A stretch of DNA of 64,000 nt from assembly GCF_002162035.1 (NCBI RefSeq), contig NZ_CP021138.1, positions 496,001-560,000 of the forward strand. Reading direction: 5' to 3'. The notes under the pieces were generated by a model, which saw only the letters and a program-made list of their open reading frames with translations, was not told where the DNA came from and made no database searches. This document shows, piece after piece, positions 10,896-28,193 of this stretch (its first letter is position 1; each line of letters opens with the position of its first letter). Source of the stretch: Sulfuriferula sp. AH1. GTDB lineage: Bacteria; Pseudomonadota; Gammaproteobacteria; Burkholderiales; Sulfuriferulaceae. The position numbers and the translations under genes were made by a program.

Positions 10896-10949
10896 AGATG
10901 AGTATAAAGTGACGAAATACGCATCATGAATGTGGTAGTGGAATCATTA

Positions 10950-10964
10950 ATTTTGGGTTAAAAT
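10950..10964 (+). promoter_or_regulatory. Probable promoter -10 region of tRNA-Ser
   Basis: The sequence ATTTTGGGTTAAAAT ends 22 bp before tRNA-Ser. It is 13/15 identical to the elements before pgsA (34967) and dnaE (40137). TAAAAT would be the -10; no good -35 is seen. Confidence 0.5.
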
Positions 10965-10986
10965 GCGCGTCTGTCGTAACAGACAT

Positions 10987-11074
10987 GGAGGTTTGGGTGA
11001 GTGGTTTAAACCAGCAGTCTTGAAAACTGCCGAAGGGCAACCTTCCGTGAGTTCGAATCTCACAGCCTCCGCCA
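10987..11074 (+). tRNA. tRNA-Ser (anticodon TGA), integration target
   Basis: An 88-nt class II tRNA with acceptor GGAGGTT/AGCCTCC, anticodon loop CTTGAAA, long variable arm, T-loop GTTCGAATC and terminal GCCA. The integrase gene follows about 215 bp downstream, and a degenerate copy of the tRNA 3' end occurs at 28194-28214. The gene therefore appears to be the attachment site of the mobile element and remains intact. Confidence 0.97.
11052..11074 (+). repeat. Attachment site at the tRNA-Ser 3' end (att, integrase side)
   Basis: The last 23 bases of the tRNA (TTCGAAT, then CT, CACAGCC, TC, CGCCA) recur in degenerate form at the other end of the element. The copy next to the integrase keeps the tRNA functional, as is usual for P4-type integrases. 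Confidence 0.7.
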
Positions 11075-11129
11075 GGACTGGTATTTGATCGTTTTCAAAC
11101 GGTTTCAAACAGTATCAAAAAACTAATTA

Positions 11130-11163
11130 AACCCGCTATCTGTAAGGATTTGCGGGTTTTTTT
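11130..11163 (+). terminator. Rho-independent terminator after tRNA-Ser
   Basis: AACCCGC and GCGGGTT form the stem around a 15-base loop, and a run of Ts follows. It insulates the integrase gene from tRNA transcription. Just before it (about 11091-11119) are three copies of a TTCAAAC/ATCAAAA-type direct repeat. Confidence 0.8.
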
Positions 11164-11207
11164 ACATTCATTCGTTGTCAAATGGTGTCATTGAATCCCA
11201 CGGCAAA

Positions 11208-11276
11208 TGACGGTATATTTCCATTTGTACCGTCACGGTATAAGGGAATATACCGTCAAATTGAAATATACCGTCA
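11208..11276. repeat. TGACGGTATAT repeats at the integrase end
   Basis: Full copies of TGACGGTATAT lie at 11208-11218 (+), 11248-11258 (-) and 11266-11276 (-), with a partial copy at 11227-11235 (-). The motif returns twice at the opposite end of the element (28122-28142). This suggests integrase arm-binding sites. They also cover the integrase promoter region, so autoregulation is possible. Confidence 0.65.
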
Positions 11277-11290
11277 TAAAAGGGATATTA

Positions 11291-12529
11291 ATGACACTCA
11301 CTGCGGTTAAGGTAAGTAAAACTAAGGCAACCGATAAACCGCAGAAATTGAGTGATGGCGGTGGTTTGTATCTACTCATTCATCCGAATGGCGGTAAATA
11401 CTGGCGACTTGATTACCGTTTTGATGGCAAGCGCAAAACTTTAGCCCTTGGTGTTTACCCTGATGTGGTTTTGGTTGAAGCCAGAGAGCGGCGTGAAGAG
11501 GCACGCAAGCAGATAAAAAATGGTGTTGATCCTTGCGGAACCAAGAAAGCCGCCAGGCAAACTACAATAGCGGAAGTTACAAACAGCTTTAAGAGTATCG
11601 CGTTGGAGTATCACCCAATCAAAGTGCCAACATGGACGGAAGGTCACGCCAAGCAGTGGTTACTTAATTTAGAGCGCTATGCTTTTCCAAAGCTTGGTGA
11701 TAGGCCGATCAGTGAGATTGAGCCTCTGGATGTCGTTGCTGTATTGCGCGATTTGGAAGAACGTAAGAATTACGAAACCCGTGACAGGTTAGGGCAATCA
11801 ATCGGCGCAGTATTCAAGTACGCGATCGCGACAGGGCGAGCTAAATACAATCCTGTTGCAGATATTAGAATCGCGTTGGTCGAGCGCCCAAAGACAATAA
11901 ATTTTAAATGTATTGCTCCTGCGGAATTGCCCGTTTTCTTGCGTGCGGTTGCGACCTATGAGAGTTTGGACAAAGTATCACCAATTGCAATATCGGCTTT
12001 CAAGCTGGTTATGTTGACCGCAACCCGTACCAGTGAAGTGCGCTTTGCCAAATGGTGCGATTTTGACCTTGATGCAGGGTTGTGGGTGATCCCTGAAGAA
12101 CAGCAGGGGCGCAAAGGCAAGCATGGCAAGCGCAAGGCTCACACCGTACCGCTATCATCTCAAGTTATAGCGATATTGCGCACACTCTTCCCAATTACTG
12201 GCGGTGGTGATTTTGTATTTCCGAATCGAAATACGCACGGGAGGGTTATCAGTGAAAATACGATATTGAAAATTATTGAAACCATCGGCTATAAGGGCAG
12301 GATGACGGGGCATGGATTTCGAAGTCTAGCGCGTACTATTTTGGGTGAAATGGGATACCGGCGCGAGGTGCTGGAAGCGATGCTATCACATGCGATTGAA
12401 AATCAGACTGAGGCGGCTTACGTCCGCACTAACTACCTGGAAGAACGGCGTGGCATTATGCAGAAATGGGCGGACTATTTGGACATGGTTAGATCGAGTG
12501 CGGATATTGTGGAATTGAAGCGGGCTTAA
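11291..12529 (+). CDS. Tyrosine site-specific integrase (P4/DUF4102 type)
   Basis: A 412-residue integrase that inserts and excises the element at tRNA-Ser. The N-terminal DUF4102 arm-binding domain reads LTAVKVSKTKATDKPQKLSD, then GGLYLLIHPNGGKYWRLDYR. The core-binding domain is followed by the catalytic domain with Arg in TATRTSEVRFAKW, HGFRSLART (the H-x-x-R box), and a C-terminal AYVRTNYLEERR containing the tyrosine. The frame is open to 11207, but ATG 11291 gives the family N-terminus and avoids the repeat region. It is the only long gene on the plus strand in the left part of the element. Confidence 0.95.
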   Translation: MTLTAVKVSKTKATDKPQKLSDGGGLYLLIHPNGGKYWRLDYRFDGKRKTLALGVYPDVVLVEARERREEARKQIKNGVDPCGTKKAARQTTIAEVTNSFKSIALEYHPIKVPTWTEGHAKQWLLNLERYAFPKLGDRPISEIEPLDVVAVLRDLEERKNYETRDRLGQSIGAVFKYAIATGRAKYNPVADIRIALVERPKTINFKCIAPAELPVFLRAVATYESLDKVSPIAISAFKLVMLTATRTSEVRFAKWCDFDLDAGLWVIPEEQQGRKGKHGKRKAHTVPLSSQVIAILRTLFPITGGGDFVFPNRNTHGRVISENTILKIIETIGYKGRMTGHGFRSLARTILGEMGYRREVLEAMLSHAIENQTEAAYVRTNYLEERRGIMQKWADYLDMVRSSADIVELKRA

Positions 12530-12540
12530 TGGTTATTTTG

Positions 12541-12738
12541 AAGTGAATGGCATGTCAATGGCGAAAGCAGAAGCCGCACGCGGAGCGCAACGCAGTGAGC
12601 ACCGAACGGGTGAGCATTTCGGCGTAGCGCACCATTGATAGGGCAGTAACGGCATAAGCTCAGGCAAGGGGTGGGGTTGGTGTTTACCCCGCCCCATGCC
12701 TATCGGCGAGATTGGGGTTTGGGGCAACGCCCCAAGGT
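12541..12738 (+). repeat. Left arm of a ~200-bp inverted repeat
   Basis: About 198 bp match, in inverted orientation, the segment 18957-19159. The first ~115 bp (from AAGTGAATGGCATGTCAATG) are almost identical and the remainder similar with small differences; both arms end in a CCCCAAGGT/ACCTTGGGG segment. It starts 11 bp after the integrase stop. Confidence 0.85.
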
Positions 12739-12750
12739 CTTTGTTCTTGG

Positions 12751-12788
12751 TGGTCGGCATTTCTTGGGGGTATAAGATATGCCGACCA
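12751..12788. repeat. Perfect 10-bp hairpin
   Basis: TGGTCGGCAT (12751-12760) pairs perfectly with ATGCCGACCA (12779-12788) over an 18-base loop. Its function is unknown; it has no T run. Confidence 0.6.
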
Positions 12789-12949
12789 TGCTTGCTGCTT
12801 GGTGGTGGCGTTCTGCGGCCTTTTGCAGTACGTCGCCATATCCATATACCATTCATTAGTTTTGAGTCCAGCGCGGTTAATTACTATACTAATAATATAC
12901 TAAACAAATCATATATTATTCATATACTAAATCAGTTCACCTGCACAAG

Positions 12950-12977
12950 AAAAAAGCCCGTCATTTCTGGCGGGCTT
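12950..12977 (-). terminator. Terminator of the 13036-13362 gene
   Basis: On the minus strand AAGCCCG(CC...)CGGGCTT is followed by six Ts. It lies 59 bases past the stop of the 108-residue gene. Confidence 0.8.
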
Positions 12978-13035
12978 AATGCTCTTGAAAACCGCCAATC
13001 CATTTTCTGCATAGGGTTGGCGGGTAGATTGTGTA

Positions 13036-13362
13036 TTACAGCAGATTGTTGCTTGAGATGATTGCGCGAATACTTGCAAGATACCGCTCATCCATTGTGT
13101 ACTGGTCTGGAATACACCCCTTCATTGATTTCGGTGCTGCATCAAGCGCAAAACGTTTCAACTCTCCAGCGGTCAACTGACCAGCGTCTTGAAGATATTC
13201 GATCACGCACTCCAAGAAATTTTGCGTAGCATTTATCCAGTGGTTTTCATTCGTATCCTTTAGTGAGTCGGGAACGATTGATTTAACCAGGTCGGCAGTC
13301 AAATTCAGTGCGATTTTTTTCTTTGTGATGTAATCGGTAATTGCGTTTTCTATGTTTTCCAT
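13036..13362 (-). CDS. Hypothetical 108-residue element protein
   Basis: I do not recognise this protein. It is soluble and probably all-helical, with an N-terminal MENIENAITDYITKKKIAL helix and an overall charge near neutral. It has its own transcription unit: the repeated promoter/hairpin cassette lies upstream (13383-13430), AAAGGA precedes the start, and a strong terminator follows. Sharing the cassette with the mobilisation genes suggests it belongs to the same regulon. Confidence 0.7.
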   Translation of the reverse strand: MENIENAITDYITKKKIALNLTADLVKSIVPDSLKDTNENHWINATQNFLECVIEYLQDAGQLTAGELKRFALDAAPKSMKGCIPDQYTMDERYLASIRAIISSNNLL

Positions 13363-13382
13363 TTTGTATATCCTTTAGATGG

Positions 13383-13430
13383 GTAAGGCAGATTGCCTTA
13401 CCCTATATGTACAAGCTGCGAAATTTGGCT
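13383..13430 (-). promoter_or_regulatory. Repeated promoter/hairpin cassette, copy A
   Basis: On the minus strand the box CCAAATTTCGCA..., ending TACATATAGG, runs into hairpin GTAAGGC-GCCTTAC (13383-13401). It is 21 bases ahead of the 13362 start. This is one of six copies in the element. Confidence 0.75.
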
Positions 13431-13431
13431 G

Positions 13432-13929
13432 TTAATGCGTCACCCGCGCCACGCCTCCCCACATGCCACCGATTACCTGCACACGATCACCGACACGGAA
13501 GGTTTCGGCGTCAACAGCTTGGCTAATGGCTCTTAGCTGTCCATTGTCCATGCGTACGGTGATTTCAATCCCGCGCTGATTGCTAATCTGGTGTTCTGCG
13601 GCATTGCCCGCTAAACCACCACCAACTGCACCTAGTGCGCTGGCAATGGTTTTGCCGTTACCACTGCCTACCTGAGAGCCTAGCACGCCGCCTAACAGTG
13701 CACCCACGCCAGTACCAACACCCGCGCTTGTGGTCGTGCTGGTGTTGATGGTGACATAACGGAAGCTGGTGACAGTGCCAGTCTCCACCTGCTGCGCTTG
13801 TCGCGCCTGCTGGCTGTTATAGTCACCGCTGCCTACGGCATTTGTGCCATAAGTGCCTGCGCATCCTGCGGTTAGTGCGGTTGCGGTCAGCAATGCCAAA
13901 ACCGCGAATGATTTTTTTGTTGGGAACAT
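13432..13929 (-). CDS. Glycine-zipper outer-membrane lipoprotein (Pcp/SlyB-like)
   Basis: A 165-residue lipoprotein. The signal peptide ends in the lipobox LTAGC near residue 22. After a Gln-rich linker comes a glycine-zipper 2TM segment (GVGTGVGALLGGVLGSQVG, then GGGLAGNAAE), followed by a small beta domain (ITVRMDNGQLRAISQ, FRVGDRVQVIGG). This layout is that of SlyB/Pcp-type envelope lipoproteins. ATG 13929 with GGAGGG upstream is preferred over the longer frame. It is last in a four-gene minus-strand run of envelope proteins starting at 15021. Confidence 0.8.
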   Translation of the reverse strand: MFPTKKSFAVLALLTATALTAGCAGTYGTNAVGSGDYNSQQARQAQQVETGTVTSFRYVTINTSTTTSAGVGTGVGALLGGVLGSQVGSGNGKTIASALGAVGGGLAGNAAEHQISNQRGIEITVRMDNGQLRAISQAVDAETFRVGDRVQVIGGMWGGVARVTH

Positions 13930-13930
13930 T

Positions 13931-14323
13931 TTATTTACCCTCCAGAATTGCACGATGATGTTTTACGCTTACGCATCCATTTTGGTAGCGCTCTTTCTCA
14001 CACTGCCAAAAATCTGGCAATATGACCGCATCCCCAATTTTCGGCTGAGTGTTTTTCCCCAGCGTCACAAGGACTGCTTGTTCCGTATTGGGTTTAAACA
14101 CATACGGTACAACATCAACCAATGAATACCCGTCCATTTGATGAATCGCGGTAATCTTCGCCTCTTCTGGCGCGTAGGTGATGTTTGCCTGAAAAGCCTG
14201 CCCAGCAACAAAGCCCGCCCCTGCTGCCAGAATAAAGACGGCAAAAAATAGCGCCACTTTTAGACGCGGGTTGGGGGTTTTGGGAGCTGTAGCTGGTGCA
14301 TCATTATTGTTTTCGTTGCTCAT
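13931..14323 (-). CDS. Single-pass membrane protein, hypothetical
   Basis: 130 residues. A Pro/Asn/Ala-rich N-terminal tail of about 20 residues is followed by one membrane segment (VALFFAVFILAAGAGFVAG) and a probably periplasmic C-terminal domain with two cysteines (WQCEKERYQNGC). The role is unknown. It has a good GGAG site before ATG 14323, and its stop is two bases from the start of the downstream lipoprotein gene. Confidence 0.7.
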   Translation of the reverse strand: MSNENNNDAPATAPKTPNPRLKVALFFAVFILAAGAGFVAGQAFQANITYAPEEAKITAIHQMDGYSLVDVVPYVFKPNTEQAVLVTLGKNTQPKIGDAVILPDFWQCEKERYQNGCVSVKHHRAILEGK

Positions 14324-14329
14324 GTTTTT

Positions 14330-14566
14330 CTACTCCTGAATTAAGATACAAAATAGCCAGGGTGACTGGGTGTTATTTGCTGATTTCTGCGCTATTCTCG
14401 CTTCATGCTCAATGCGTTCTGCGCGGCATTTCAATCCTTGAAAGACAAGCTGCTCATCACCGTTCGGGTGGATTAAATACACGCTTGCGAGGTCTTCGGC
14501 TTCAATATCAGCTTGGTAAACCACCCGCCCTTTCGGACGGGCGGTAAAGGTCTTTAGCTCACTCAT
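14330..14566 (-). CDS. Hypothetical 78-residue protein
   Basis: A small soluble protein (MSELKTFTARPKGRVVYQ...) that I do not recognise. It contains one or two cysteines and is mainly charged. The start ATG overlaps the stop of the upstream secreted-protein gene (ATGA), so it is translationally coupled. This coupling and the frame's position in a tight operon are the main evidence that it is real. Confidence 0.6.
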   Translation of the reverse strand: MSELKTFTARPKGRVVYQADIEAEDLASVYLIHPNGDEQLVFQGLKCRAERIEHEARIAQKSANNTQSPWLFCILIQE

Positions 14567-15021
14567 TTCGCCAGCTTGCACACATTGACGTTAGCGAGCT
14601 GGTTGCCGTCCTGGTCAACCGTATCGCCCAGCACCCGCAAGCTGACTTTATGGTTGGTGGCGGCATCGTTAACCGTCCATTTCAAGCCTGCGCCATCGCC
14701 TTTCATCTGTAGCATAGTCGCCCAGCCAAATGGATTAAGCGTATCAACGGCAAACACTGGAAGCGAGAGCAAGCCCATTGCTGGCGTGTACGCGCTAAGT
14801 GTCAAATATGCTGTGGCTGGAATAGGCACATCAGGCACGTTGATGGATTGCGAAGCAGCAAAGTCACGCAAGGTAGTGAAGTCTTCTTTTTTGACTGTGG
14901 TGGTCTGACATACCACTGGCGCATTAGCTGCGCCGCCAAGGTCTGCTGCTGTGGGTGGCTCTTGTGCAACCTTTGCAGCTAAAGCCAACGGAAAAAACAA
15001 CATCAAAAATGGAAAAGCCAT
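14563..15021 (-). CDS. Exported hypothetical protein, 152 residues
   Basis: It has a clear signal peptide (MAFPFLMLFFPLALAAKVA) followed by an exported domain with a few cysteines (VVCQTT; VNVCKLAK at the C-terminus). The family is unknown. It is first of the four-gene envelope cluster 15021-13432, preceded by AAGGA and by copy B of the repeated promoter cassette. The cluster may modify the recipient or donor envelope or act in exclusion; that is inference. Confidence 0.7.
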   Translation of the reverse strand: MAFPFLMLFFPLALAAKVAQEPPTAADLGGAANAPVVCQTTTVKKEDFTTLRDFAASQSINVPDVPIPATAYLTLSAYTPAMGLLSLPVFAVDTLNPFGWATMLQMKGDGAGLKWTVNDAATNHKVSLRVLGDTVDQDGNQLANVNVCKLAK

Positions 15022-15045
15022 GATAAAAGTCCTTTATAAGGTAGC

Positions 15046-15090
15046 AAGGCAAATCGCCTTACCCTATATGTACGTGATGCGAAATTTGGC
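15046..15090 (-). promoter_or_regulatory. Repeated promoter/hairpin cassette, copy B
   Basis: On the minus strand, box GCCAAATTTCGCATCACGTA, then CATATAGGG and a short AAGGC-GCCTT stem. It precedes the envelope operon starting at 15021. Confidence 0.75.
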
Positions 15091-15183
15091 GCGAAGAATG
15101 GCAAAGTAAAAAACAAGCGGATTGATCAGGCGAAATTTGAGCGATTATTTTTAATCGGTTGATGTTCTGGTATCAGGCAGGCG

Positions 15184-15208
15184 TAAAAAACCCGCTGGTG
15201 AGGCGGGT
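15184..15208 (-). terminator. Terminator after the relaxase gene
   Basis: Minus-strand stem ACCCGC/GCGGGT followed by six Ts, just past the relaxase stop at 15216. Confidence 0.8.
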
Positions 15209-15215
15209 AAGTGGG

Positions 15216-18200
15216 TTATAGGCTGTAATCGTTGTCGCGGCTTCTGGCTTTGTCTGCTGTATCAGGTTGCTTTGATTCAGGTGTTGGTTGTGGCTGCGGT
15301 GTTGGGATTGGTGTGGCTGCTGTTTTATCTACTCGTACGCCTGCTTGCTCTGCGGCCTTGGTTTTGTCCTGCGTGTATAGCTTGACGTATATCTTAGCGC
15401 GGGTGACGTTCACATACGCTTCACGCTGTCCATGCTTGCCCGCTTCTGTATTATGATGAATCCACGTCATTTTTACGCTCTGCCCTTGTGCGGCTTGGCT
15501 GGTTGAGGCGTAGGCGTGGTCGATATGCTGGTACTTGCTCATGTCGATGGTTTTGGTCTTGCCGCCTTCCAGCCTGACCGTCAGGCTTGCGCCGTCAATT
15601 CGCTCTATGGTCGCGCTTTGCCCATTCTTAACGTCAAAATTACGGTTGTTTTCCGCAAATTTAATCTTGTCGCCTATGCCTAGTTCTCGCTCTTTAGCTT
15701 GATAGGCTTGGGCTTGGTGGCGGTCGGGTTGATAAGTCACTGTGTTGCCCCTGCTGGTCATGGCGGTAATTGTGTTGGTGCGCGTATCAGTCTTTAATAC
15801 TGTTACCAGCTCGCCACGCTCCAAACCTAGATTCTTGTAAGCGTTGCCGAACTTAACAATGTCGCCCTGCTGGTAGTTGACTGCGCGTTTGGCTTGTTCT
15901 GCGGTCATGTCTTTGCGCTCCAGCACTTGCACCATGCGGCTATCCTTGATTTCACCAGCGGCTTTTAGGTTCGTGCGAATTTCAGCGTTGATGCTGGCCC
16001 GGTCTGTATTGGTCGCTGTTATGACGAGGGTTTCAGCGCGCTCTTTGGGTGAAAGCGCGGCGTAATCTTTGGCAAGGTCTTTGATAACGGCGATATTGTC
16101 TTTTTGTGCAGCTTGCTTGATGTCGTCTTTGTAGGTGCGCAGGGTGGATTTTTCACGGTCGGTTAGCTTTTCGCGGCTGGCTTGCTTCGCTTCAAGGCCT
16201 GCTATCTTTTGCTGGTATTGGGCTTTAACCTTGGCTTGCTCGCTTTGGACTTCGTGGCAAGGCAGACTTCTGATTGCTTCCGCGTGCTTGTTGTCCAGTA
16301 TGTGCTTAACCGTTGCCTTTGCGTGGTCGGTTTTTTGGCGGCTAATCTGTTCCAGGTTAGATACAGGCATGTGCTTCTGCGCTTGCTCAAAGGCTGCGCC
16401 TGCTTCAACGGATTGGTGCTGGAGCTTGTCACCTAAATAGATTTGCTTTGCGCCTGCGCTGTCTGCTGTGTGTGCTACGCTGGCGAATTCTTTCTGCCCG
16501 CTCATGGATGCTTCGTCCATGATACGCAATTCATGCACGGGCTTGATTTCCGCCTGTTGTTTGAGGTCGGTAAGGGCTTGGCTATGGTGCGCACGATTTT
16601 CTACCGCAATTTTGATTCGTGCTGCCGTACTCTCTAACGTGCCTGCTTGCTTCCAACCTTCGGCTTTGCTAATTACGCTTTTAGCCAAACGAGCAGCGAA
16701 ATTGTGAGATTTGATGCTGTCCCTGATTGCACCTGCGGCTTCATTTTTCAAGCTACCGCCCGTTTTAATAACGGTGGTCATGCCCACGATGCCCGCCAGC
16801 CCCTTGCTGTTAACAATCTGGTATTTGCTCTGAGTCAAGCCTAGATGGTTGATGTTGTGGCTCGTGGTGCTGTTGCTGGTGGCGTGCAAGGCAAGTGCAT
16901 GGGTGTTGCCTGCTTTGTCGATGATGTAGGCATTGCCCGCGCTGTCATACTCTTTGACGGCTTCGCCATTGCTCACCTGTTCTTCCAGTTTTGCCAGATT
17001 TGGTTTGATGCCTGCCTCAAAGGTTTTGAGGGCTGCGGCGGCGCGTTGCTGGTCACGCTGTGCCTTGGCTTGCGATAGCAGGTAGCTGGCGGTTGTGGTG
17101 GTCTGGATGCCGCTTTCCTGCTGCATCTTTTGAGCTTGGTTTGCGCCATTGGAAAAGCCGGTTACTGTCCAGCCTTGGCTTTCTGCGGCTACGCGCACAA
17201 ATTCTAGCATGGTGGTTTTGCCCGTGCCTGCCAAGCCTTGCACGCCAGCATGTGCATCCTTGCCCGTTAGTATCATGCTGGCGGCTGCCCGCTGTTCTTC
17301 CGTGAGGGCAAAGCCTTTGTCACGCTCAAAGTTAGCCAATGCCTTGTCGAATGCCTGCGGCGTCATCACGGCTTGATGCGCGTCTTTGCCAGCCTCAAGG
17401 CGTGCGGCCAGGGCTTGTTCTGAGGCCGTCGCTGCAAGGGTGGTTAGCTTGCCGTCGGCACGATGGATCAGCTCGCCGTTGCGCTCTGCCTTGATTATCG
17501 CTGCGCGTATCTGGCTATAGGTTGCCCGCCCCTCGCTGAATTTAGCAGCGTTGGCATAAATCTCTTTTTGGCTGAATGCGGCTTCACGTTCTGCAAGGTG
17601 CGCAATTGAAGAAGCAACGGCTTCCTTGCCCGCGTTCAGTGTATATGCCTGTGCTTGGCTGATACGGGGTAATGGCTCTTTCAAGTTGATGCTTGTTGCG
17701 CGTTCCAGCCATTGCGCCCGCTGTTGCGCGGCGGATTCCGGTGCTGATTTGGCGGCACGGGTCGCCAGACAGGCAACCTCGCGCTGCTTGTTGGTTGCGC
17801 GGTCTGGGTCTATGCCTTTGGCTTTAAGATAATCGTCGATTTGCTGGCTGCGGTTGCTGAATTCTGCACGTTGTTCGACTGTGATACCCATTAACTCGGG
17901 ATTTCCGTACTTGTCGAATTCAATCTGATAGCCGCGCATTTGCAGTTCTGCCGCTAATTCGTTTTTGTAGATTTGGTCGGCGGTTGCGCGGTTATTCAAT
18001 AAGGCTTCGTTTGATAAGCTGTAAGCCTTGCCGTTGTGGTAGGTGACATTGGCAATGGCAACATGCGTGTGCGTGCTGGGGTCTAGCTCGCGGGTCAGGC
18101 TGTGCTCAAATCTGGCATACACAAGATTTTGCGTTTGCACCATTTGCCCGTTGGCGCGGGTTTGTGCGCAGTTTGATTCCAGATAGTTCATGGCCGCGTT

Positions 18201-18587
18201 TACGGCGGCTTCGTGAGCGGCGCGGATGCCTGTGCTGTCGTATATTTCAGCCGCGATTGAGATGGATTTGGGGGCGCTAAAGGTAAAGTCCATGCCTGCG
18301 CGGTGGTCTATCTTGCCTTCTGCATCTATCCTGCCTAGCTGCCGTTCTGCGTTGTTGTTTGCAGGTTCGCGGAATTGACCAGACAGGACTTTATGCAGAT
18401 CGGCAGCGGAAACGCTGCCGCCAAGTTCATATCCTGCTAAGGCTGCACCTTCGCCGCCCCATGTGCTTCTAACCTGGTCGTCGGCGTAATACTCACCCCG
18501 CGCTTTATCTGGTTGTGTGCCATTTTGCTCTTTTGTTAAGTAACCTGCTGCGCCTTTGGCGGATTTGAAGTGGGTGCAACTAATCAT
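15216..18587 (-). CDS. MobF relaxase-helicase (TrwC/TraI-like)
   Basis: A 1123-residue conjugative relaxase. The N-terminal relaxase domain carries tyrosines at Y16 and Y33-Y34 and the family motif DFTFSAPKSISI. The metal-binding histidine triad is H162, H173 and H175 (in STHTHVAIANV), with the same 11- and 2-residue spacing as TrwC. A superfamily 1 helicase follows, with Walker A GLAGTGKTT at 451-459 and a DEASMSG Walker B box. It ends in a Pro/Gln-rich tail (TPIPTPQPQPTPES). It nicks oriT, stays bound to the 5' end and unwinds the strand for transfer. AAGGA precedes ATG 18587. It is longer than TrwC (966 residues). Confidence 0.95.
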   Translation of the reverse strand: MISCTHFKSAKGAAGYLTKEQNGTQPDKARGEYYADDQVRSTWGGEGAALAGYELGGSVSAADLHKVLSGQFREPANNNAERQLGRIDAEGKIDHRAGMDFTFSAPKSISIAAEIYDSTGIRAAHEAAVNAAMNYLESNCAQTRANGQMVQTQNLVYARFEHSLTRELDPSTHTHVAIANVTYHNGKAYSLSNEALLNNRATADQIYKNELAAELQMRGYQIEFDKYGNPELMGITVEQRAEFSNRSQQIDDYLKAKGIDPDRATNKQREVACLATRAAKSAPESAAQQRAQWLERATSINLKEPLPRISQAQAYTLNAGKEAVASSIAHLAEREAAFSQKEIYANAAKFSEGRATYSQIRAAIIKAERNGELIHRADGKLTTLAATASEQALAARLEAGKDAHQAVMTPQAFDKALANFERDKGFALTEEQRAAASMILTGKDAHAGVQGLAGTGKTTMLEFVRVAAESQGWTVTGFSNGANQAQKMQQESGIQTTTTASYLLSQAKAQRDQQRAAAALKTFEAGIKPNLAKLEEQVSNGEAVKEYDSAGNAYIIDKAGNTHALALHATSNSTTSHNINHLGLTQSKYQIVNSKGLAGIVGMTTVIKTGGSLKNEAAGAIRDSIKSHNFAARLAKSVISKAEGWKQAGTLESTAARIKIAVENRAHHSQALTDLKQQAEIKPVHELRIMDEASMSGQKEFASVAHTADSAGAKQIYLGDKLQHQSVEAGAAFEQAQKHMPVSNLEQISRQKTDHAKATVKHILDNKHAEAIRSLPCHEVQSEQAKVKAQYQQKIAGLEAKQASREKLTDREKSTLRTYKDDIKQAAQKDNIAVIKDLAKDYAALSPKERAETLVITATNTDRASINAEIRTNLKAAGEIKDSRMVQVLERKDMTAEQAKRAVNYQQGDIVKFGNAYKNLGLERGELVTVLKTDTRTNTITAMTSRGNTVTYQPDRHQAQAYQAKERELGIGDKIKFAENNRNFDVKNGQSATIERIDGASLTVRLEGGKTKTIDMSKYQHIDHAYASTSQAAQGQSVKMTWIHHNTEAGKHGQREAYVNVTRAKIYVKLYTQDKTKAAEQAGVRVDKTAATPIPTPQPQPTPESKQPDTADKARSRDNDYSL

Positions 18588-18628
18588 GGCTGATTCCTTT
18601 CTTATTGGTAGTGAAACTGCATTGGCTT

Positions 18629-18826
18629 TTAGTGAATGACAGTGAACGCAGCGGGTAGCCAGTCAGAAGGTGAAAACATGATGATTAGACACAAGGCGAA
18701 GACAAACAGCGCAAATGCGACAGCTAACACGTTGATGATTGACCAGGCTGTTAGCAGCATTTCTTTTGCTTTGGCGAGGCGTGTAGCTGGCTTGGTTGGG
18801 GTTGCTGGTGTGGGTAGGGTTTGCAT
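18629..18826 (-). CDS. Small single-pass membrane protein, 65 residues
   Basis: A Thr/Pro-rich N-terminal tail (TLPTPATPTKPATRLAKAKE) precedes one strong membrane segment (INVLAVAFALFVFALCLIIM). The function is unknown. It lies between copy C of the promoter cassette and the relaxase gene, so it probably leads the relaxase transcript. The overlapping frame from ATG 18833 has a better-placed AAGGA but reads as His/Ser/Cys-rich noise, so the hydrophobic frame is preferred. Confidence 0.6.
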   Translation of the reverse strand: MQTLPTPATPTKPATRLAKAKEMLLTAWSIINVLAVAFALFVFALCLIIMFSPSDWLPAAFTVIH

Positions 18827-18842
18827 GGTGCATGTTCCTTTT

Positions 18843-18892
18843 GGTTATAAGCAAAAGTGCTTAACCTATATGGAACCCATGCGAAATATGGC
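18843..18892 (-). promoter_or_regulatory. Repeated promoter/hairpin cassette, copy C
   Basis: The most divergent of the six boxes (GCCATATTTCGCATGGGTTC, then CATATAGG), followed by hairpin GGTTAAGCA...TGCTTATAACC. It precedes the 65-residue protein and the relaxase. Confidence 0.7.
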
Positions 18893-18956
18893 GGCGTAAG
18901 ATTGGTGCGACTATCGGGGTATCGGGGCAGCTATCGGATATCATGATTGCATGAAC

Positions 18957-19159
18957 ACCTTGGGGCGTCGCCCCAAACCCCAATATTCGCCATATAGGCA
19001 AGGGTGCGGGGTTAAACAACAACCCCACACCCTTACCAGAGCTTAGGCCGTTACTGTCCTGTCAATGGTGCGCTACGCCGAAATGCTCACCCGTTCGGTG
19101 CTCACTGCGTTGCGCTCCGCGTGCGGCTTCTGCTTTCGCCATTGACATGCCATTCACTT
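18957..19159 (-). repeat. Right arm of the ~200-bp inverted repeat
   Basis: The inverted counterpart of 12541-12738. Together they enclose about 6.2 kb holding the envelope cluster and the relaxase. The right arm overlaps the last two codons of a 39-residue gene. Confidence 0.85.
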
Positions 19160-19273
19160 GATAAAGCCGAAAAAATCAGCGATCTTGATGATTGCACCAA
19201 CAACTAACCCCACAATAATGGCGACGTAAATGATGTCGGTGCAGTTCTGGCAAAACGGACGATCTGGACGCAT
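19154..19273 (-). CDS. Small membrane protein, 39 residues
   Basis: It reads MRPDRPFCQNCTDIIY, then a membrane segment VAIIVGLVVGAIIKIA and a short tail FFGFIK. A CxxC pair (CQNC) sits just before the membrane. It is preceded four bases upstream by the stop of the 59-residue gene. The tail lies within the inverted repeat. Its length means that only the hydrophobic pattern and operon position support it. Confidence 0.5.
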   Translation of the reverse strand: MRPDRPFCQNCTDIIYVAIIVGLVVGAIIKIADFFGFIK

Positions 19274-19277
19274 TTGA

Positions 19278-19457
19278 TTACCTTTTCGAGATTAAAAGCA
19301 AAAAATACTTCAGCATGTAAAGCGGGAAAAACGCCAATAATAGCGCGACTCGCAAAGTTAATTTAGCACCGAATTTGACAACAAACAGGGCTGTTTTCTT
19401 GTTCGCGCCCCATTCGTTCTTCGCTGGCATGTAATCTGGCATTTCAATTTTGAACAT
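19278..19457 (-). CDS. Small membrane protein, 59 residues
   Basis: An N-terminal soluble part (MFKIEMPDYMPAKNEWGANK) is followed by one or two hydrophobic segments (LTLRVALLLAFFPLYMLKYF) and a basic end (ISKR). GGAAA precedes ATG 19457. Its role is unknown. It is the middle gene of three small membrane genes between the coupling protein and the relaxase. Confidence 0.55.
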   Translation of the reverse strand: MFKIEMPDYMPAKNEWGANKKTALFVVKFGAKLTLRVALLLAFFPLYMLKYFLLLISKR

Positions 19458-19493
19458 GATGTTTCCTTTCGATTTAGTTAATAATGCGCTGGC

Positions 19494-19589
19494 TCACAAA
19501 CCAAACATCCAGCCCATAAATGCGAACCCTGCGACACAGAAAGCCAAGGTTGGTAACATGTGCAATACGCCGTTATCGTAATTTTCCAT
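19494..19589 (-). CDS. Very small membrane protein, 31 residues
   Basis: The frame reads MENYDNGVLHMLPTLAFCVA, then GFAFMGWMFGL and stop: one hydrophobic segment with short acidic front. AGGAG precedes the start at 19589, and copy D of the promoter cassette lies 23 bases upstream of the ATG. It heads the small-protein operon. Confidence 0.55.
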   Translation of the reverse strand: MENYDNGVLHMLPTLAFCVAGFAFMGWMFGL

Positions 19590-19611
19590 TTTGCGAACTC
19601 CTGATTTGGTT

Positions 19612-19659
19612 GTTAAGCAAAGGTGCTTACCCTATATGTACGTGATGCGAAATTTGAGC
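19612..19659 (-). promoter_or_regulatory. Repeated promoter/hairpin cassette, copy D
   Basis: Box CAAATTTCGCATCACGTA, then CATATAGGG, followed by hairpin TAAGCA-TGCTTA. It precedes the three small membrane genes. Confidence 0.75.
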
Positions 19660-19666
19660 GGTGACA

Positions 19667-19690
19667 ATGCCCGCCATTTTCGGCGGGCAT
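19667..19690. terminator. Hairpin after the coupling-protein gene
   Basis: A perfect 9-bp GC-rich stem ATGCCCGCC/GGCGGGCAT with a 6-base loop, six bases past the coupling-protein stop. It has no T run, so it may be an RNA 3' end protector or weak terminator. Confidence 0.5.
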
Positions 19691-19695
19691 GATGG

Positions 19696-21378
19696 TCACA
19701 CTTGCGGGGTATCGTCGTCTTCGGGCAGATCAAAAGGCAGGTATGAATTGCTGATCGGGGCTGGCGCTTCTTCCTGCTGTTGCGCGGGCTGGGCTTGCGG
19801 GATGTACGCTACAGGCTCAAAGCGTGGCGCTGGGTCTGGCAATGCGGCGGGTATATCTAGCGAAATTTTGACAATATCGTAAGCGCCGCCTAACACCAGA
19901 TAGCCCTCACGCTCTGGCAAGTTCTGTATTTGGCTGGGCAATATGGTGCGCTGGCGTTGGATGCTGGTGTTTTCGGATGTTTTGTCCTCAAATTCCAGTC
20001 CGGTTGCATGGCTTTTGCCTTCACTCGTGCGCCAAACTTCCTGGTCACCAAGTGTCTTGGACATATATTCTGCGGTTTCACCGTCCATTACCCGCAAAAT
20101 CAGCCAACTGGATAAACACGATACCAATACGTTAGCCGCCTGATGCCCGTAGTTTTCTCGGAACTGGTCAATGTTCTGTAATCCGATTACCGCACATCCG
20201 CCTGATTTTCTGGCTTTCGTCAGGAAGTCAGCAAGCGATCCGATTTTATTGAGGCTGGCGCACTCGTCAATCATTAGCCAGGTGCGGCGGGTTGGATCTG
20301 GGTCTTGTGATAATACAACTTTGCTCACAACGTCCAGAATCGCTGAAATGATGGGCTTTAATGATTGCAGCTGGTCGTCGCGGAAGGTTAGAAACGCCCA
20401 CTGGTTGCCCTCGCTTTCCGCATATCGGCGGAAACTAAAGGCTTCGCGTCCCGCCTTCGGCGGTAGGTAGTTAAAGGGCTGTATTGCACTGGCGGCAATG
20501 GCGCGCACACTTCCAAACATCCGTTCATTGCCCTCTGCCATGAGGGGCGCGGCGGGTGTGCCTGCGGCTAATATCCGCAGGTTTTCAATAGTGGATACGC
20601 AAACATAATGGAACAGATCGGCGTTGGTGGCGTGTCCTGATTCAAACAGCCTCAGCAAAACGACTGACAGGAAGGTTTGCGCATAGCCACTGAACTGCCC
20701 CGCTTCGCCCTGCATATCAGGGATGATGGATTTAGCCATGCTGTCTGCATCCCACGGGTAGCGCATTTCAGCGAATGGTGACCAACTGACTGAACGCGCA
20801 TCAAACGGATTGAACAGGATAGGGTCAGTTAAGTTGTTAGCGTATCGGCTGTAAAATCCGCCGCCGGAATCCACGCAAATCACTTTTTCTGTTGGATTGG
20901 CACGCGCTTTGATTTTGTCCAGCATTTCTATGAAAGCAACGGATTTACCCGTGCCTGTCGCCCCTGCGAACAGAAAATGATAGGGTTCAAGATTGTCTGG
21001 AACTGGCACGCCAGCAAGACTTAAATCAGCCGTCACACCTGCTTTGCGCATTTGTTTTATCACTTTGCTATGACTGGAGATTGACGAGCCACGCACATGA
21101 TTAGGGTCGCTATCTGCCGCATCCAGCCAACTGGCAATATGTTCCTTTATCGCAAATTCCCAAATGCTCATGAAGATAAATACGGCTGCAAAGTAACCAA
21201 GCCAGCTGCTAAAAAATGCATTGTGGTTTGCCGGGTTAATGCTGAAAATCAGACTTGCAACTGTCGGGATAATGAATAATTTGAATTTCATATTATCTGC
21301 CGAATAGATATAAATCCGTGCGGCGATTAATGACAAAACAGCAATGACAAAAATTATTGTGTAGATGGATTCGAACAT
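19696..21378 (-). CDS. Type IV coupling protein (TrwB/TraD-like)
   Basis: A 560-residue inner-membrane ATPase that links the relaxase-DNA complex to a type IV secretion channel. Two N-terminal membrane segments (IYTIIFVIAVLSLIAARIYI; SWLGYFAAVFIFMSIW) precede Walker A GATGTGKS at 139-146 and Walker B TWLMIDECAS. An acidic, Pro-rich C-terminus ends LPFDLPEDDDTPQV, typical of coupling-protein tails. ATG 21378 with GGAG seven bases upstream is chosen over the longer frame. Directly upstream is the TrwA-like gene, giving the R388-type order trwA-trwB-trwC. Confidence 0.93.
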   Translation of the reverse strand: MFESIYTIIFVIAVLSLIAARIYIYSADNMKFKLFIIPTVASLIFSINPANHNAFFSSWLGYFAAVFIFMSIWEFAIKEHIASWLDAADSDPNHVRGSSISSHSKVIKQMRKAGVTADLSLAGVPVPDNLEPYHFLFAGATGTGKSVAFIEMLDKIKARANPTEKVICVDSGGGFYSRYANNLTDPILFNPFDARSVSWSPFAEMRYPWDADSMAKSIIPDMQGEAGQFSGYAQTFLSVVLLRLFESGHATNADLFHYVCVSTIENLRILAAGTPAAPLMAEGNERMFGSVRAIAASAIQPFNYLPPKAGREAFSFRRYAESEGNQWAFLTFRDDQLQSLKPIISAILDVVSKVVLSQDPDPTRRTWLMIDECASLNKIGSLADFLTKARKSGGCAVIGLQNIDQFRENYGHQAANVLVSCLSSWLILRVMDGETAEYMSKTLGDQEVWRTSEGKSHATGLEFEDKTSENTSIQRQRTILPSQIQNLPEREGYLVLGGAYDIVKISLDIPAALPDPAPRFEPVAYIPQAQPAQQQEEAPAPISNSYLPFDLPEDDDTPQV

Positions 21379-21413
21379 TTTATTTGCTCCTTGATTATGC
21401 AAAATCGGATTGG

Positions 21414-21749
21414 TTATTCGCTGATTTCTGATTCGTTTCCTGTGCTGTCACCATCAAAAAAAGTTGATGTTTGATTGATGGCGTCTTGCTTCGCTTTGTC
21501 TAAAATCTCTGCGCGTTTATCTGCTGGCGAAAGTTTATAGAGGATGTGAATACTCGTTGCGGCCAGTCTGAAAAGCTCGCGGTTTATTAGCATCTGTGCT
21601 TCAAAGTTCTGCATGTTCTGCGCATTTTCTTTTCCGATTTCATAGCGCGTTTTTACGAATGTCGCTAAAGGCAATCCCGCGCTTTTTGCAAGTTCCTGAA
21701 CTTGTGAAAACTCAATATCTGACACACGGATATAAAGTTGTTTGCTCAT
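21414..21749 (-). CDS. TrwA-like DNA-binding mobilisation accessory protein
   Basis: 111 residues starting MSKQLYIRVSDIEFSQVQEL. The short beta-strand plus two helices at the N-terminus (residues 1-45, ending FVKTRYEIGKE) look like a ribbon-helix-helix DNA-binding domain, and the acidic helical remainder like an oligomerisation part. By position (between putative oriT and coupling protein) and size it matches R388 TrwA (about 121 residues), which binds oriT, represses its own operon and stimulates the coupling ATPase. The family assignment is by layout, not by strong motif. GGAG lies 8 bases before ATG 21749. Confidence 0.65.
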   Translation of the reverse strand: MSKQLYIRVSDIEFSQVQELAKSAGLPLATFVKTRYEIGKENAQNMQNFEAQMLINRELFRLAATSIHILYKLSPADKRAEILDKAKQDAINQTSTFFDGDSTGNESEISE

Positions 21750-21778
21750 TTTTGGCACTCCATTAAGTTTATAAAACG

Positions 21779-21825
21779 GGTCAGGTTGACCAGTTAATCT
21801 ATATGTACATGATGCGAAATTTGGC
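21779..21825 (-). promoter_or_regulatory. Repeated promoter/hairpin cassette, copy E
   Basis: Box GCCAAATTTCGCATCATGTA, then CATATAGATTAACT and hairpin GGTCA-TGACC. It precedes the trwA-trwB-like operon. Confidence 0.75.
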
Positions 21826-22049
21826 GGATTGTGAGATATACTTTGATTTCAGATGCTTTCGCCTATGTTTACTGACTTGTAGCTTCATTTCGATAGTGCA
21901 CAAAAGCACTTTTCTAGTTTGGGTGCTTTTGGGCTATGAGCCAGGAGCGGCAAGGGTTTGAACGGTTTGCATACACATGCGTAATGTGTGCCTGCTTCCC
22001 TATGGTTTTTAGGGAGGCAGGAAAGTGTAGTGAAACGGAACGACCTTAT
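21826..22049 (+). other. Candidate origin of transfer (oriT)
   Basis: This noncoding stretch lies directly upstream of the trwA-like gene, where R388 has oriT. It is rich in inverted repeats: AAAAGCAC/GTGCTTTT (21902-21930), AGTGC/GCACT (21895-21910), GCAT-ACAC-ATGC (21969-21980) and CCTGCTTCCCT/AGGGAGGCAGG (21991-22021). The GCAT hairpin is followed by TGCGTAATGTGT (21978-21989), 10 of 12 identical to the R388 nic region as I recall it. Nicking would fall after 21989 on the plus strand, so trwABC would transfer last, as in R388. Confidence 0.6.
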
Positions 22050-22427
22050 TTAGGTTTTAATGTTGGTGGCTGATCTGTTTCTTGATGCCGTTAAAAACGC
22101 AAACGTGAAAATGATGATAGTGACGAGTGGGTAAATTATGAATATGAGTTGATGCTCAAATTGATAATCCGCGATTAGGTGAAGATTGAAATTTATCAAT
22201 GTGGCATGTATTGATTCTGGTAAGTGATTAGCCAGCCAAACAGTCAAGTTTGAATCTATCGGCAGATAAAAAAATAACGATGCGGCAAACAAGTCAAAGT
22301 TGAAATTATGCTTATAGGCTTCGATCTTAAAACCAATAAATGTACCTGCGCAATATCCGATAAAAATTAGCCAGGCTAAAATTTTAATGTTCAGTTTTAA
22401 GTTATTTACGTGATCAACTTTAATCAT
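22050..22427 (-). CDS. Membrane protein, 125 residues, hypothetical
   Basis: Three hydrophobic segments are visible (IKILAWLIFIGYCAGTFIGF; LFAASLFFYLP; LIFIIYPLVTIIIFTFAFLT). I do not recognise the family. The ATG overlaps the stop of the preceding gene (ATGA at 22424-22427), so both form one operon under promoter cassette F. On the other side its stop faces the candidate oriT. Confidence 0.65.
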   Translation of the reverse strand: MIKVDHVNNLKLNIKILAWLIFIGYCAGTFIGFKIEAYKHNFNFDLFAASLFFYLPIDSNLTVWLANHLPESIHATLINFNLHLIADYQFEHQLIFIIYPLVTIIIFTFAFLTASRNRSATNIKT

Positions 22428-22663
22428 GATTGATCGCCTTGGGGAAATTGAGAACTAACGTTTTGCGATTCTGCGTTAATTCCGCTTTGATAAGATAACG
22501 CAATCTGTTCAAACGCAGTTTTCAGAAAGTCATCTGGAAGATTTAGAATCCCCGCTTTATGCGCAATATTGGCAACTGCGATTTTACGTTTTTCTGATTT
22601 TTGGTAATCAGCGATTTTCTGATTTAGCTGATCACGTTTTTTGATGAGTACATTAACGCTCAT
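22424..22663 (-). CDS. Small helical mobilisation-type protein, 79 residues
   Basis: It starts MSVNVLIKKRDQLNQKIADY and continues with a basic coiled-coil-like helix (QKSEKRKIAVANIAHKAG). The pattern of a KRD/Q-rich helix followed by a short C-terminal domain resembles small TraD/MobC-type accessory proteins of mobilizable plasmids, but I cannot assign a family. The frame is open to 22840, but GGAAA and promoter copy F place the start at ATG 22663. Confidence 0.6.
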   Translation of the reverse strand: MSVNVLIKKRDQLNQKIADYQKSEKRKIAVANIAHKAGILNLPDDFLKTAFEQIALSYQSGINAESQNVSSQFPQGDQS

Positions 22664-22698
22664 GGTGATTTTCCTTTCGGGTGAAGTTTGATAATGAC

Positions 22699-22747
22699 AA
22701 CCAAAAACTTTGGTTAATGCATATGTAACAGATGCGAAATTTTGGGC
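22699..22747 (-). promoter_or_regulatory. Repeated promoter/hairpin cassette, copy F
   Basis: Box CCAAAATTTCGCATCTGTTA, then CATATGCATT and hairpin AACCAAA-TTTGGTT. It precedes the 22663-22050 operon. Confidence 0.7.
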
Positions 22748-22831
22748 TGTATGAAAGGGATTGACATCGTGATAACCAGCAAGTGAAAATGTTTTAACGT
22801 TGCGTGTGTTGATATTTTTAGGAGTCGAAAA

Positions 22832-23293
22832 ATGGACCAAAATGCTTTTCTAGAGAGGGTGGGCAATGGCGACGATGAGGCAGGAGCGCTTTATTACCAC
22901 TATCGCAGCCAGGAAGACCATGCATTTTTACAGCAAAAAGCCAGGGAGGTCCGGGAGCGCAAAGAACGCATCCTCGCTAATATGAGCGTTGCTGAACTGG
23001 AGCGGCTTGATACTGAAGCAGCCAAGCAAAGACGAGAATCTGAAATTGCTCAAAGCACTTTCAAAAAAAAGTTGGAAGAATTTGTTGGTTTTTTTGTGTT
23101 GTTGTTTATCGGCGGTAATATGGCAAACCCAGAAAATCATGTTCCTGGTTACATCCATGCGCTAGGCTGGTTCGTGGTATCCATGCTGGCGTTATCCGTT
23201 ATTTTGGTTATTAAGAAATTCTTTTCTGGATTTTCAGTCTTCAGCAGAGGAAAAAACAAAAAAGTAGCTGGGATAGAAGGATACATGCAATGA
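22832..23293 (+). CDS. Membrane protein with coiled-coil N-terminal half, 153 residues
   Basis: The first ~75 residues are charged and helical (QQKAREVRERKERILANMS). Two membrane segments follow (FVGFFVLLFIGGNMA and LGWFVVSMLALSVILVI), then a basic tail. The family is unknown. It starts a plus-strand run of three genes, divergent from the minus-strand operon at 22663; AGGAG lies before ATG 22832. Confidence 0.65.
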   Translation: MDQNAFLERVGNGDDEAGALYYHYRSQEDHAFLQQKAREVRERKERILANMSVAELERLDTEAAKQRRESEIAQSTFKKKLEEFVGFFVLLFIGGNMANPENHVPGYIHALGWFVVSMLALSVILVIKKFFSGFSVFSRGKNKKVAGIEGYMQ

Positions 23294-23529
23294 ACGCCGA
23301 ACAAAATGATTTTAAACGGCTGCGTGCCGCTCAGACAGCCATTCTTAAAGGAACTGATGAAGAAGCTGCGCCGTATCTGAAATGGGTGTTTGATGACATC
23401 TTTGACGAAGAAAAGGCGCTTGAACAAACCAGCTTTCGGATGACAATGAAGCGCCTGGGGTTGGATTTCGAGAAATTTTTAAACAAGCTGTATGAAAATG
23501 CGCGTGTAATGCATTTTTTGATTGGGTAA
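23290..23529 (+). CDS. Hypothetical 79-residue soluble protein
   Basis: A small acidic helical protein (MNAEQNDFKRLRAAQTAILK...) that I do not recognise. Its start overlaps the stop of the preceding membrane-protein gene (ATGA), which supports it as a real, coupled gene. Confidence 0.6.
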   Translation: MNAEQNDFKRLRAAQTAILKGTDEEAAPYLKWVFDDIFDEEKALEQTSFRMTMKRLGLDFEKFLNKLYENARVMHFLIG

Positions 23530-23552
23530 ATAGGGGGGGGTAGGGTGGGGTT

Positions 23553-23969
23553 ATGATAAAAAAACGAATTGCGGTGGTTCTGGTCGCTCTGGGGGCCATT
23601 TCTTTGGCTGGTTGCGGAGATAGTAAGCCAAGCGAAAAAGATGGTAAGGAAGGGTTTGATAAGCAATATGCAGTTTCACAGTGCGCAATCATTAAGAGTT
23701 TCAAAAAAACTAATGGTGCAAATACTGATTTTATGGGTGCTCCTGCGTATGAAATGTATTATGAAGCTGAATTAAAGCTTAATAAAACATGCTTTGTGAA
23801 TTATTCTGAACAGGGCAAACATCTTCATAGTAAATTTACAGTTGGCATACCGGACTGGCATGTTAATCTTGCGGAACATCAGGTCTATCATGCAGGTGAT
23901 ACGTTGCTCGTTAGTGACAAGCTATATCTTCACAATACTGAGAATGGGTGGGTACTGCTGGAGTTGTGA
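23553..23969 (+). CDS. Lipoprotein, 138 residues (possible entry-exclusion type)
   Basis: It has a lipoprotein signal peptide (MIKKRIAVVLVALGAISLAGC) with the cysteine at residue 21, then a charged linker and a domain with two cysteines (SQCAIIKS, KTCFVNYS). Small lipoproteins next to mobilisation genes often serve in entry exclusion; here that is only inferred from context. It is the last gene of the plus-strand trio. An inverted repeat (24010-24033) follows 41 bases after the stop. Confidence 0.65.
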   Translation: MIKKRIAVVLVALGAISLAGCGDSKPSEKDGKEGFDKQYAVSQCAIIKSFKKTNGANTDFMGAPAYEMYYEAELKLNKTCFVNYSEQGKHLHSKFTVGIPDWHVNLAEHQVYHAGDTLLVSDKLYLHNTENGWVLLEL

Positions 23970-24009
23970 GCAATCAGAATTAGGTATCCGGGTTTGATAT
24001 AGAAGCGAT

Positions 24010-24033
24010 GGTGTCGATGCCATTATCGACACC
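24010..24033. repeat. Hairpin after the lipoprotein gene
   Basis: A perfect 9-bp stem GGTGTCGAT/ATCGACACC with loop GCCATT. There is no T run. Confidence 0.5.
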
Positions 24034-24072
24034 ACTCGCAGAAAGCTGAATCGCAAGAACAGGTTAGTTATT

Positions 24073-25294: not shown

Positions 25295-25296
25295 AG

Positions 25297-26599: not shown

Positions 26600-26609
26600 C
26601 GTCACACCA

Positions 26610-27298: not shown

Positions 27299-27301
27299 GA
27301 T

Positions 27302-27322
27302 GCGTCCTCACATGTTGAGACG
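27302..27322. promoter_or_regulatory. Imperfect palindrome upstream of the AlpA-like gene
   Basis: GCGTCCTCA and TGAGACGC face each other across CATGT. It touches the AlpA-like start codon region and may be an operator. Confidence 0.45.
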
Positions 27323-27410
27323 CGAGGTGCTGAATTTGTTTGAAAGTGTGATCAGCGCCAATCGCGCCTAATTAAATCCTAAAAACTAAATGCTTTTTTA
27401 AAAGAGATAA

Positions 27411-28142: not shown

Positions 28143-28193
28143 AAAGAAAAAGTGAATTTTTTATCTTATCTAAAACATGTGGTTGTTGAACTT

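Follow-up and report, generated by a model that had tools for sequence, protein, structure and literature searches.

The stretch analysed here (the window: 64,000 nt of the Sulfuriferula sp. AH1 genome, contig NZ_CP021138.1, positions 496,001 to 560,000; coordinates below are those of the window unless a genome or locus is named) carries an integrative element whose bounds appear to lie at about 11075-27915, as judged from the flanks it shares with a related genome, G012, which resume on the right at about 27915; an exact direct repeat of at least 12 nt from the tRNA end, sought as the element's end, was not found. The transfer half of the element runs leftward as six minus-strand units and holds a MobF/TrwC mobilisation module, with a TrwC relaxase (PF08751, 1.6e-70), a TrwB coupling protein (PF10412, 1e-102) and a TrwA-like accessory protein, whose NikA-like Pfam match falls below the cut-off in the window and above it in a more distant element, G229. 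Each of the six units is preceded by a conserved box and, directly behind it, a short stem-loop, and it is this cassette that we describe.

A preliminary description of this DNA had proposed such a six-copy layout ahead of separate minus-strand units, and direct reading of the six copies bears it out: copies of AAATTTCGCAT-N4-TACATATA, with the box span counted from AAATTT through CATATA, stand on the minus strand ahead of each transfer unit, with 79, 73, 66, 63, 66 and 64 nt between the first box base and the first ATG for boxes 1 to 6, respectively (the start coordinates given at that stage correspond roughly to the far ends of the hairpins). A model search of the window places the box ahead of each of these units and nowhere else. 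While AAATTTCGCA alone occurs at chance level (10 matches with at most one mismatch vs. 9.73 expected), the composite ATTTCGCANNNNNTNCATAT is matched exactly at six places in the 2.9 Mb genome, each of them within this element and all on a single strand, with none at one mismatch and 24 at two; a chance origin of the box is thus rejected, and the earlier proposal of a cis-element set dedicated to the transfer units is supported. Two half boxes, AAATTTCGC without CATATA, also lie on the minus strand, one at 15129-15138, 51 nt upstream of box 5 and present in G012 too, the other at 19859-19868 within the TrwB gene.

The strict box pattern recurs in one further genome among 150 relatives, G012, and a relaxase search of 18 genomes of the genus retrieves related elements in G012 (91% identical) and G013 (83% identical), which together with that of the window form type A. 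Both relatives have six box copies, 18 with the window: all six in G012 are orthologous to those described above, while in G013 five stand ahead of orthologous genes, the relaxase there being preceded directly, without the small open reading frame (ORF), and the sixth lies ahead of an inverted duplicate of the small-ORF unit (1073744 of G013), the unit order being slightly different. Box and hairpin are therefore kept at the same genes in homologous elements, whose lack of both was to have spoken against the preliminary description. The covariance-model search suggested there returns, from the 18 same-genus genomes, exactly 18 sites in the three elements at E ≤ 6.8e-9, with the next best at E = 0.05. 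Model R1 gives strong matches in the window's genome, G012 and G013 alone among 399 genomes of the order and in the window's own genome alone among 369 of the class, with 11 other single weak matches in the two sets (E 3e-4 to 7e-3). Across the five window-G013 ortholog pairs the box is identical at 17-19 of 23 positions, and the 60 nt upstream of it resemble each other at shuffled-sequence level in three pairs and slightly above it in two. Viral contigs hold no match to any of three box patterns; the strict pattern has five matches in 257 Gb of genome contigs, single copies in unrelated taxa, a number near chance because about two are expected for 19 fixed bases in 257 Gb at even base use. 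The element of G012 also carries extra cargo (locus L013, 12253-18606) with resolvase-like, DNA adenine methylase-like and ATPase/OLD-nuclease-like ORFs, named by eye, which is perhaps a defence island.

Features of the element in the window, with genes, boxes and hairpins (aa, amino acids)
Feature	Position	Strand	Remarks
tRNA-Ser	10987-11074		adjoins tyrosine integrase
Tyrosine integrase	11207-12529	+	no box in front
Unit 1	22050-22663	-	79-aa and 125-aa proteins without Pfam hit; matches to both in G012 and G013
Unit 2	19696-21749	-	TrwA-like (NikA-like ribbon-helix-helix) protein and TrwB coupling protein
Unit 3	19154-19589	-	three small ORFs (31, 59, 39 aa), hydrophobic by eye
Unit 4	15216-18826	-	small ORF and MobF/TrwC relaxase-helicase (15216-18587)
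Unit 5	13432-15021	-	152-, 83- and 130-aa proteins and glycine-zipper lipoprotein
Unit 6	13036-13362	-	108-aa protein
Box 1	22720-22742	-	AAATTTCGCATCTGTTACATATG; ends CATATG
Box 2	21800-21822	-	
Box 3	19633-19655	-	
Box 4	18867-18889	-	variant ATATTTCGCATGGGTTCCATATA
Box 5	15065-15087	-	
Box 6	13404-13426	-	GCAG in place of GCAT; five bases past unit 5 stop codon
Hairpin 1	22698-22716	-	8-bp stem, AACCAAA/TTTGGTT core
Hairpin 2	21775-21795	-	GGTCAACCTGACC core
Hairpin 3	19608-19631	-	TAAGCA/TGCTTA
Hairpin 4	18843-18866	-	GGTTAAGCACTTTTGCTTATAACC
Hairpin 5	15043-15063	-	GGTAAGGC-GATTT-GCCTTGCT, two G-U pairs
Hairpin 6	13381-13403	-	GGGTAAGGCAATCTGCCTTACCC; 10-bp stem beginning directly after TATA
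Intrinsic terminator	15190-15208	-	after relaxase; similar terminator ahead of orthologous box in G012 and G013

In all 18 copies of the three elements a stem of 5-10 bp, longer where bulges are admitted, can form directly after CATA(TA). With the RNA folded from the end of CATA onward, a design that confines the stem to the sequence behind it, pairing begins 1-7 nt after CATA in every copy. The mean minimum free energy (MFE) of 26 nt at this fixed offset, -9.2 kcal/mol, is the minimum over offsets from -150 to +199, where the mean is -2.3 (sd 1.3), and mononucleotide shuffles are beaten at p < 0.05 by 14 of 16 distinct hairpins, with p = 0.053 and 0.068 for the other two. The stems themselves are unlike each other even at orthologous genes: the gene for the 79-aa protein has AACCAAA..TTTGGTT in the window and a TGAGC..GCTCA-type stem in G013, and three unlike stems precede TrwA across the three elements.

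The arms of each hairpin are nonetheless matched to each other. A loop-anchored permutation that pairs the 5' arms with 3' arms of other sites weakens the mean energy from -9.4 to -5.5; the observed value is reached in 0 of 20,000 permutations of 15 distinct arm pairs, in 6 of 20,000 with one representative for each of the eight stem families, and in 20 of 3,600 for the window's six alone. Column-wise covariation in a model-fitted alignment, on the other hand, is not clearly above controls, with 56.6% paired cells vs. 53.1% in shuffles (28 of 500 as high), a score of 0.187 vs. 0.165 (96 of 500 as high) and fewer double changes than in shuffles (2 vs. 3.2), and RNAalifold predicts no pairs; we attribute this negative outcome to stems of differing length and register that do not align. 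An alignable common stem is thereby rejected, the stems being specific to each copy, and of the covariation with preserved pairing that had been claimed for these stems the matching of arms within copies stands, whereas the column-by-column signal does not. Taken from sequence comparison, these data support selection on hairpin pairing and not on hairpin sequence.

The same layout recurs with another box. In G229, an element from another family of the same order whose TrwC is about 40% and TrwB 34% identical to those of the window, the family of direct repeats is an unrelated box, CTGACAG..GCGCGAA-N2-TRTR (type B), with 11 copies that precede the NikA-like, TrwB, TrwC and other genes. The main stem begins 1-4 nt after TRTR in 10 of the 11 (folds read by eye), the copy at 693284 folding weakly, and at two sites outer pairs extend back into the TATA-like core; the hairpins are again unlike each other, and no arm permutation of 20,000 reaches the observed value. 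At eight more distant TrwC loci (L099-L104, L106 and L107; about 25-37% identical) an upstream-repeat detector found no such family. This detector recovers four sites in the window's element and six in G229, its minus-strand hit in L102 is a tandem array and the minus strand of L104 lacks usable starts, and a cruder repeat detector was useless in GC-rich DNA; box and hairpin may thus be confined to this TrwC branch, unless the detector is too weak.

What the cassette does bears first on how the units are transcribed. In each of the three type A elements an intrinsic terminator follows the relaxase, ahead of the next box, so that unit 5 needs a promoter of its own. In agreement with the earlier remark that no sigma-70 -35 lies at the right distance, none of the 18 sites has a usable -35/-10 pair, defined as at least 9 of 12 matches in hexamers 16-18 nt apart, with A-11 and T-7 and with the -10 beginning no further than -60 or +41 from the box. 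Further downstream, matches of 9 of 12 run into two start codons, that of unit 5 (15047-15020; likewise in G012 and G013) and that of unit 3 (19616-19588), and would give RNA that begins within the gene. A complete hairpin in the mRNA would require transcription to begin no later than the first bases behind TATA(G), because its outer pairs often use the GG(G) found there. We therefore propose, with the chances evenly balanced in our estimation, that the boxes are element-specific promoters of a transfer regulon, that is, sites of recognition and melting within an integrative mobilisable element, and that transcription starts at or just after TATA(G), such that each transfer mRNA would open with its own short stem-loop. 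This 5'-terminal structure would most likely shield the mRNA from 5'-end-dependent decay, and its sequence could drift freely as long as pairing holds, while the boxes would stay nearly identical within an element family because a single factor, an activator or polymerase encoded by the element, a helper or the host, must recognise them all. The layout points to a dedicated on-switch for DNA transfer.

Several observations weigh against this proposal. A start right after TATA(G) would not fit the spacing of sigma-70 starts, which we regard as the main puzzle: a sigma-70 start six to eight bases past the -10 hexamer would lie inside the hairpin. The type B box of G229 does have a -35-like CTGACA 16 nt ahead of its TATA-like hexamer, which suits sigma-70 and would likewise put the start within the hairpin. 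Among the 18 same-genus genomes, a search that detects T7 polymerase as its control finds no phage-type RNA polymerase (PF00940), the G229 genome being outside this search, though a helper might encode such an enzyme, and by tblastn and Pfam no activator candidate is common to type A and G229 beyond TrwB, TrwC and the ribbon-helix-helix protein. Lastly, when the box is included in the fold the hairpin is kept in 16 of 18 MFE folds and CATA bases are paired in 7 of 18, so that the border of the box is no sharp limit of pairing.

An explanation that we consider possible, if on the unlikely side, is an activator-dependent sigma-70 promoter in which the box is an activator site over the -35 and spacer, TATAGR serves as a weak -10 and RNA starts inside the hairpin. 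The full hairpin would then exist only in read-through RNA, where it would shield the genes, much as inverted repeats at the ends of IS10 and IS50 shield genes from external transcription; the hairpin leaves the ribosome-binding site uncovered, though, which a read-through shield would need to cover. At all 11 sites of G229 the CTGACA (5 of 6 matches to TTGACA) is followed, at a distance of 16 nt, by a hexamer that agrees with TATAAT in 3-4 of 6 positions, but none of these hexamers has T-7. For type A neither placement of the hexamer comes with a -35: A-11 and T-7 are both present in 15 of 18 sites if the hexamer ends at the invariant T, and in 17 of 18 for CAAATT at the left edge of the box, each with a mean of 3.1 matches. 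In favour of this reading, the AcaCD-activated promoter Pxis of SGI1 is described as unaffected by removal of its putative -35 box (PMC4605294).

Box and hairpin could instead be transcribed together and act as RNA, as an element between cistrons that is processed or bound by a regulator and by which a long transcript is cut into units whose 5' ends a hairpin protects, a reading that we hold to be unlikely. It draws on boxes that lie at or just behind the preceding stop codon (13432/13426 in the window; 692285 and 698304 in G229), on the persistence of the hairpin in folds that include the box and on the action of RNase E in single-stranded A/U-rich RNA beside structure. The terminator upstream of one box in three elements speaks against it, as do the sequences upstream of the box, hardly or not conserved in the five window-G013 pairs, and the divergent G229 units at 691107 (-) and 691728 (+): both have a box, and the sequence that separates them contains no sigma-70-like promoter.

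A more specific form of the promoter proposal is quite improbable in our judgement: RNA starting right after TATA(G) would reflect a mode of initiation that host RNA polymerase is not known to use, whether a helper brings in its own polymerase or an activator displaces the start of the host enzyme, with a co-selected 5' hairpin capping each mRNA and with the box having diverged together with its partner between types A and B while the arrangement of start and hairpin was retained. It is very doubtful that the sites work at the DNA level, read as folded single strands by the relaxase or a recombinase, for example, and marking module borders. Single-stranded DNA is the form in which a MobF element would be expected to transfer, and the slightly changed unit order and extra inverted copy in G013 would suit such a role, but all 18 copies keep the same orientation to a gene start within about 80 nt, and the G-U pairs (19 of 160) fit RNA better, a weak argument as RNAfold favours G-U. 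We find it scarcely credible that the copies arose by recent paralogous duplication of one leader and keep the hairpin by chance, without function. Stems common to several units (AAGGC..GCCTT) do indicate that copying or gene conversion probably occurred, but the two arms of each copy fit each other far better than permuted arms do, and G229 has the same layout built around an unrelated box.

As to who would read the box as a promoter, two of the proteins initially put forward for DNA-binding tests fare poorly. The TrwA-like protein is disfavoured as box binder, since what we take to be the DNA-contact strand of its ribbon-helix-helix fold reads KQLYIRV in the window and ERLSIRL in G012 and G013, while the box motif remains the same. 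The 108-aa protein has no tblastn match in a 38-kb stretch of G013 in which the box is still present; the 130-aa protein of unit 5 is likewise without tblastn match in G012 and G013. The third, an AlpA-like protein of 154 aa (p154), is 54% identical to a G013 protein and 27% to a G012 protein and has sub-threshold helix-turn-helix matches only. For the 79-aa protein of the window Pfam yields nothing at E up to 10, and for its G013 ortholog one match below threshold; AlphaFold models of the 79-aa and 154-aa proteins are too poor to judge either as a regulator (mean pLDDT 61 and 50).

Among known systems, one close in logic is the SGI1 family of integrative mobilisable elements under the AcaCD activator of a helper, whose transfer-related genes are likewise controlled through an activator motif and whose integrase promoter is constitutive (PMC4605294). 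The AcaCD motif, an inverted repeat of 13 bp (GCCCTAAAAGGGC), is located ahead of the start region, and the part of that report available to us mentions no 5' hairpin (PMC4605294), whereas in the present elements the box, a different sequence, is joined with TATA and hairpin in a single cassette of 45 nt. The late promoters phi10, phi3.8 and phi17 of T7 resemble it in architecture, with a box of about 20 bp that ends in TATA, a start at GGG and a hairpin as the first RNA structure; across 13 T7 promoters the mean folding minimum lies at the annotated start, strong in these three, and several have no hairpin. The likeness has its limits, as the 18 same-genus genomes are without phage-type polymerase, T7 polymerase reads bases 9-11 ahead of the start, and the corresponding bases ahead of the presumed start are variable here, and the hairpins of the type A elements vary copy by copy. 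Short stem-loops at the extreme 5' end of ompA and papA stabilise their mRNAs, with pairing mattering more than sequence; those concern single host genes, the present ones a whole mobile-element regulon. Near-identical operators are repeated before transfer operons for KorA/KorB in RP4 and KorA/ArdK in R388 and pKM101, over ordinary sigma-70 promoters, a comparable set of regulatory sites but one that is not known to include a hairpin. In the middle promoters of T4, finally, a MotA box at -30 similarly replaces the -35, but these have a good -10 TATAAT, a normal start distance and no known hairpin.

The literature searched contains no report of this box-hairpin cassette, and while its general ingredients, plasmid-wide regulatory sites and 5' stem-loops, are known, their combination and its recurrence with a changed box seem new. 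A compact expression cassette of box, start region and hairpin repeated before every transfer unit, under structural selection in relatives and conserved as a design in an element with a TrwC only about 40% identical and a different recognition box, raises the testable questions of what reads the box and whether selection acts on mRNA 5' ends across a whole regulon. If transcription does start where the hairpins imply, conjugative elements would have a nonstandard mode of initiation.

The element probably relies on a helper for transfer. None of 20 window proteins is a core gene product of a type IV secretion system, and PF03135 (VirB4) has no match in the window's genome (G000), G012 or G013, the F-type ATPase family not having been searched, while 10 of the 18 genus genomes have a match, nine of them over the cut-off. 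A helper signal could conceivably switch the regulon on, as in SGI1. No phage match was found to 12900-20800, no relative of the 152-aa protein in plasmids and no TrwB relative in viral contigs. Between TrwB and TrwC lie four tiny ORFs (31-66 aa, hydrophobic by eye; 18630-19589, minus strand), three of which are matched in both relatives.

An inverted repeat of 146 nt (92%; 12536-12681 and 19019-19164) has one arm at the integrase end and the other directly ahead of the relaxase unit, with a further pair at 12711-12741 and 18954-18984. Its conservation against G013 is 93%, compared with 75-81% for its neighbours, and in a plasmid search the best 10 of 85 matching records all meet it at 71-79% in unannotated DNA, six of the 10 at several places; it is a candidate origin of transfer (oriT) or a widespread plasmid repeat. 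At another TrwC locus, L104 (genome G378), two copies of GGGTTTGGGGGCGGCGATGAGCCCCCA.. (782-832 and 4351-4401) resemble the GGGGTTTGGGGC..GCCCCAAGG block beside this repeat in the window. Rfam at gathering score has no match over the hairpins and yields only a tRNA and psRNA2 in 10900-29000; the latter match (25181-25373, plus strand, 126.7 bits) extends over the last part of a gene for an rve-domain transposase (24136-25227) and has inverted repeats on its sides, and the psRNA2 family may therefore be a piece of an insertion sequence.

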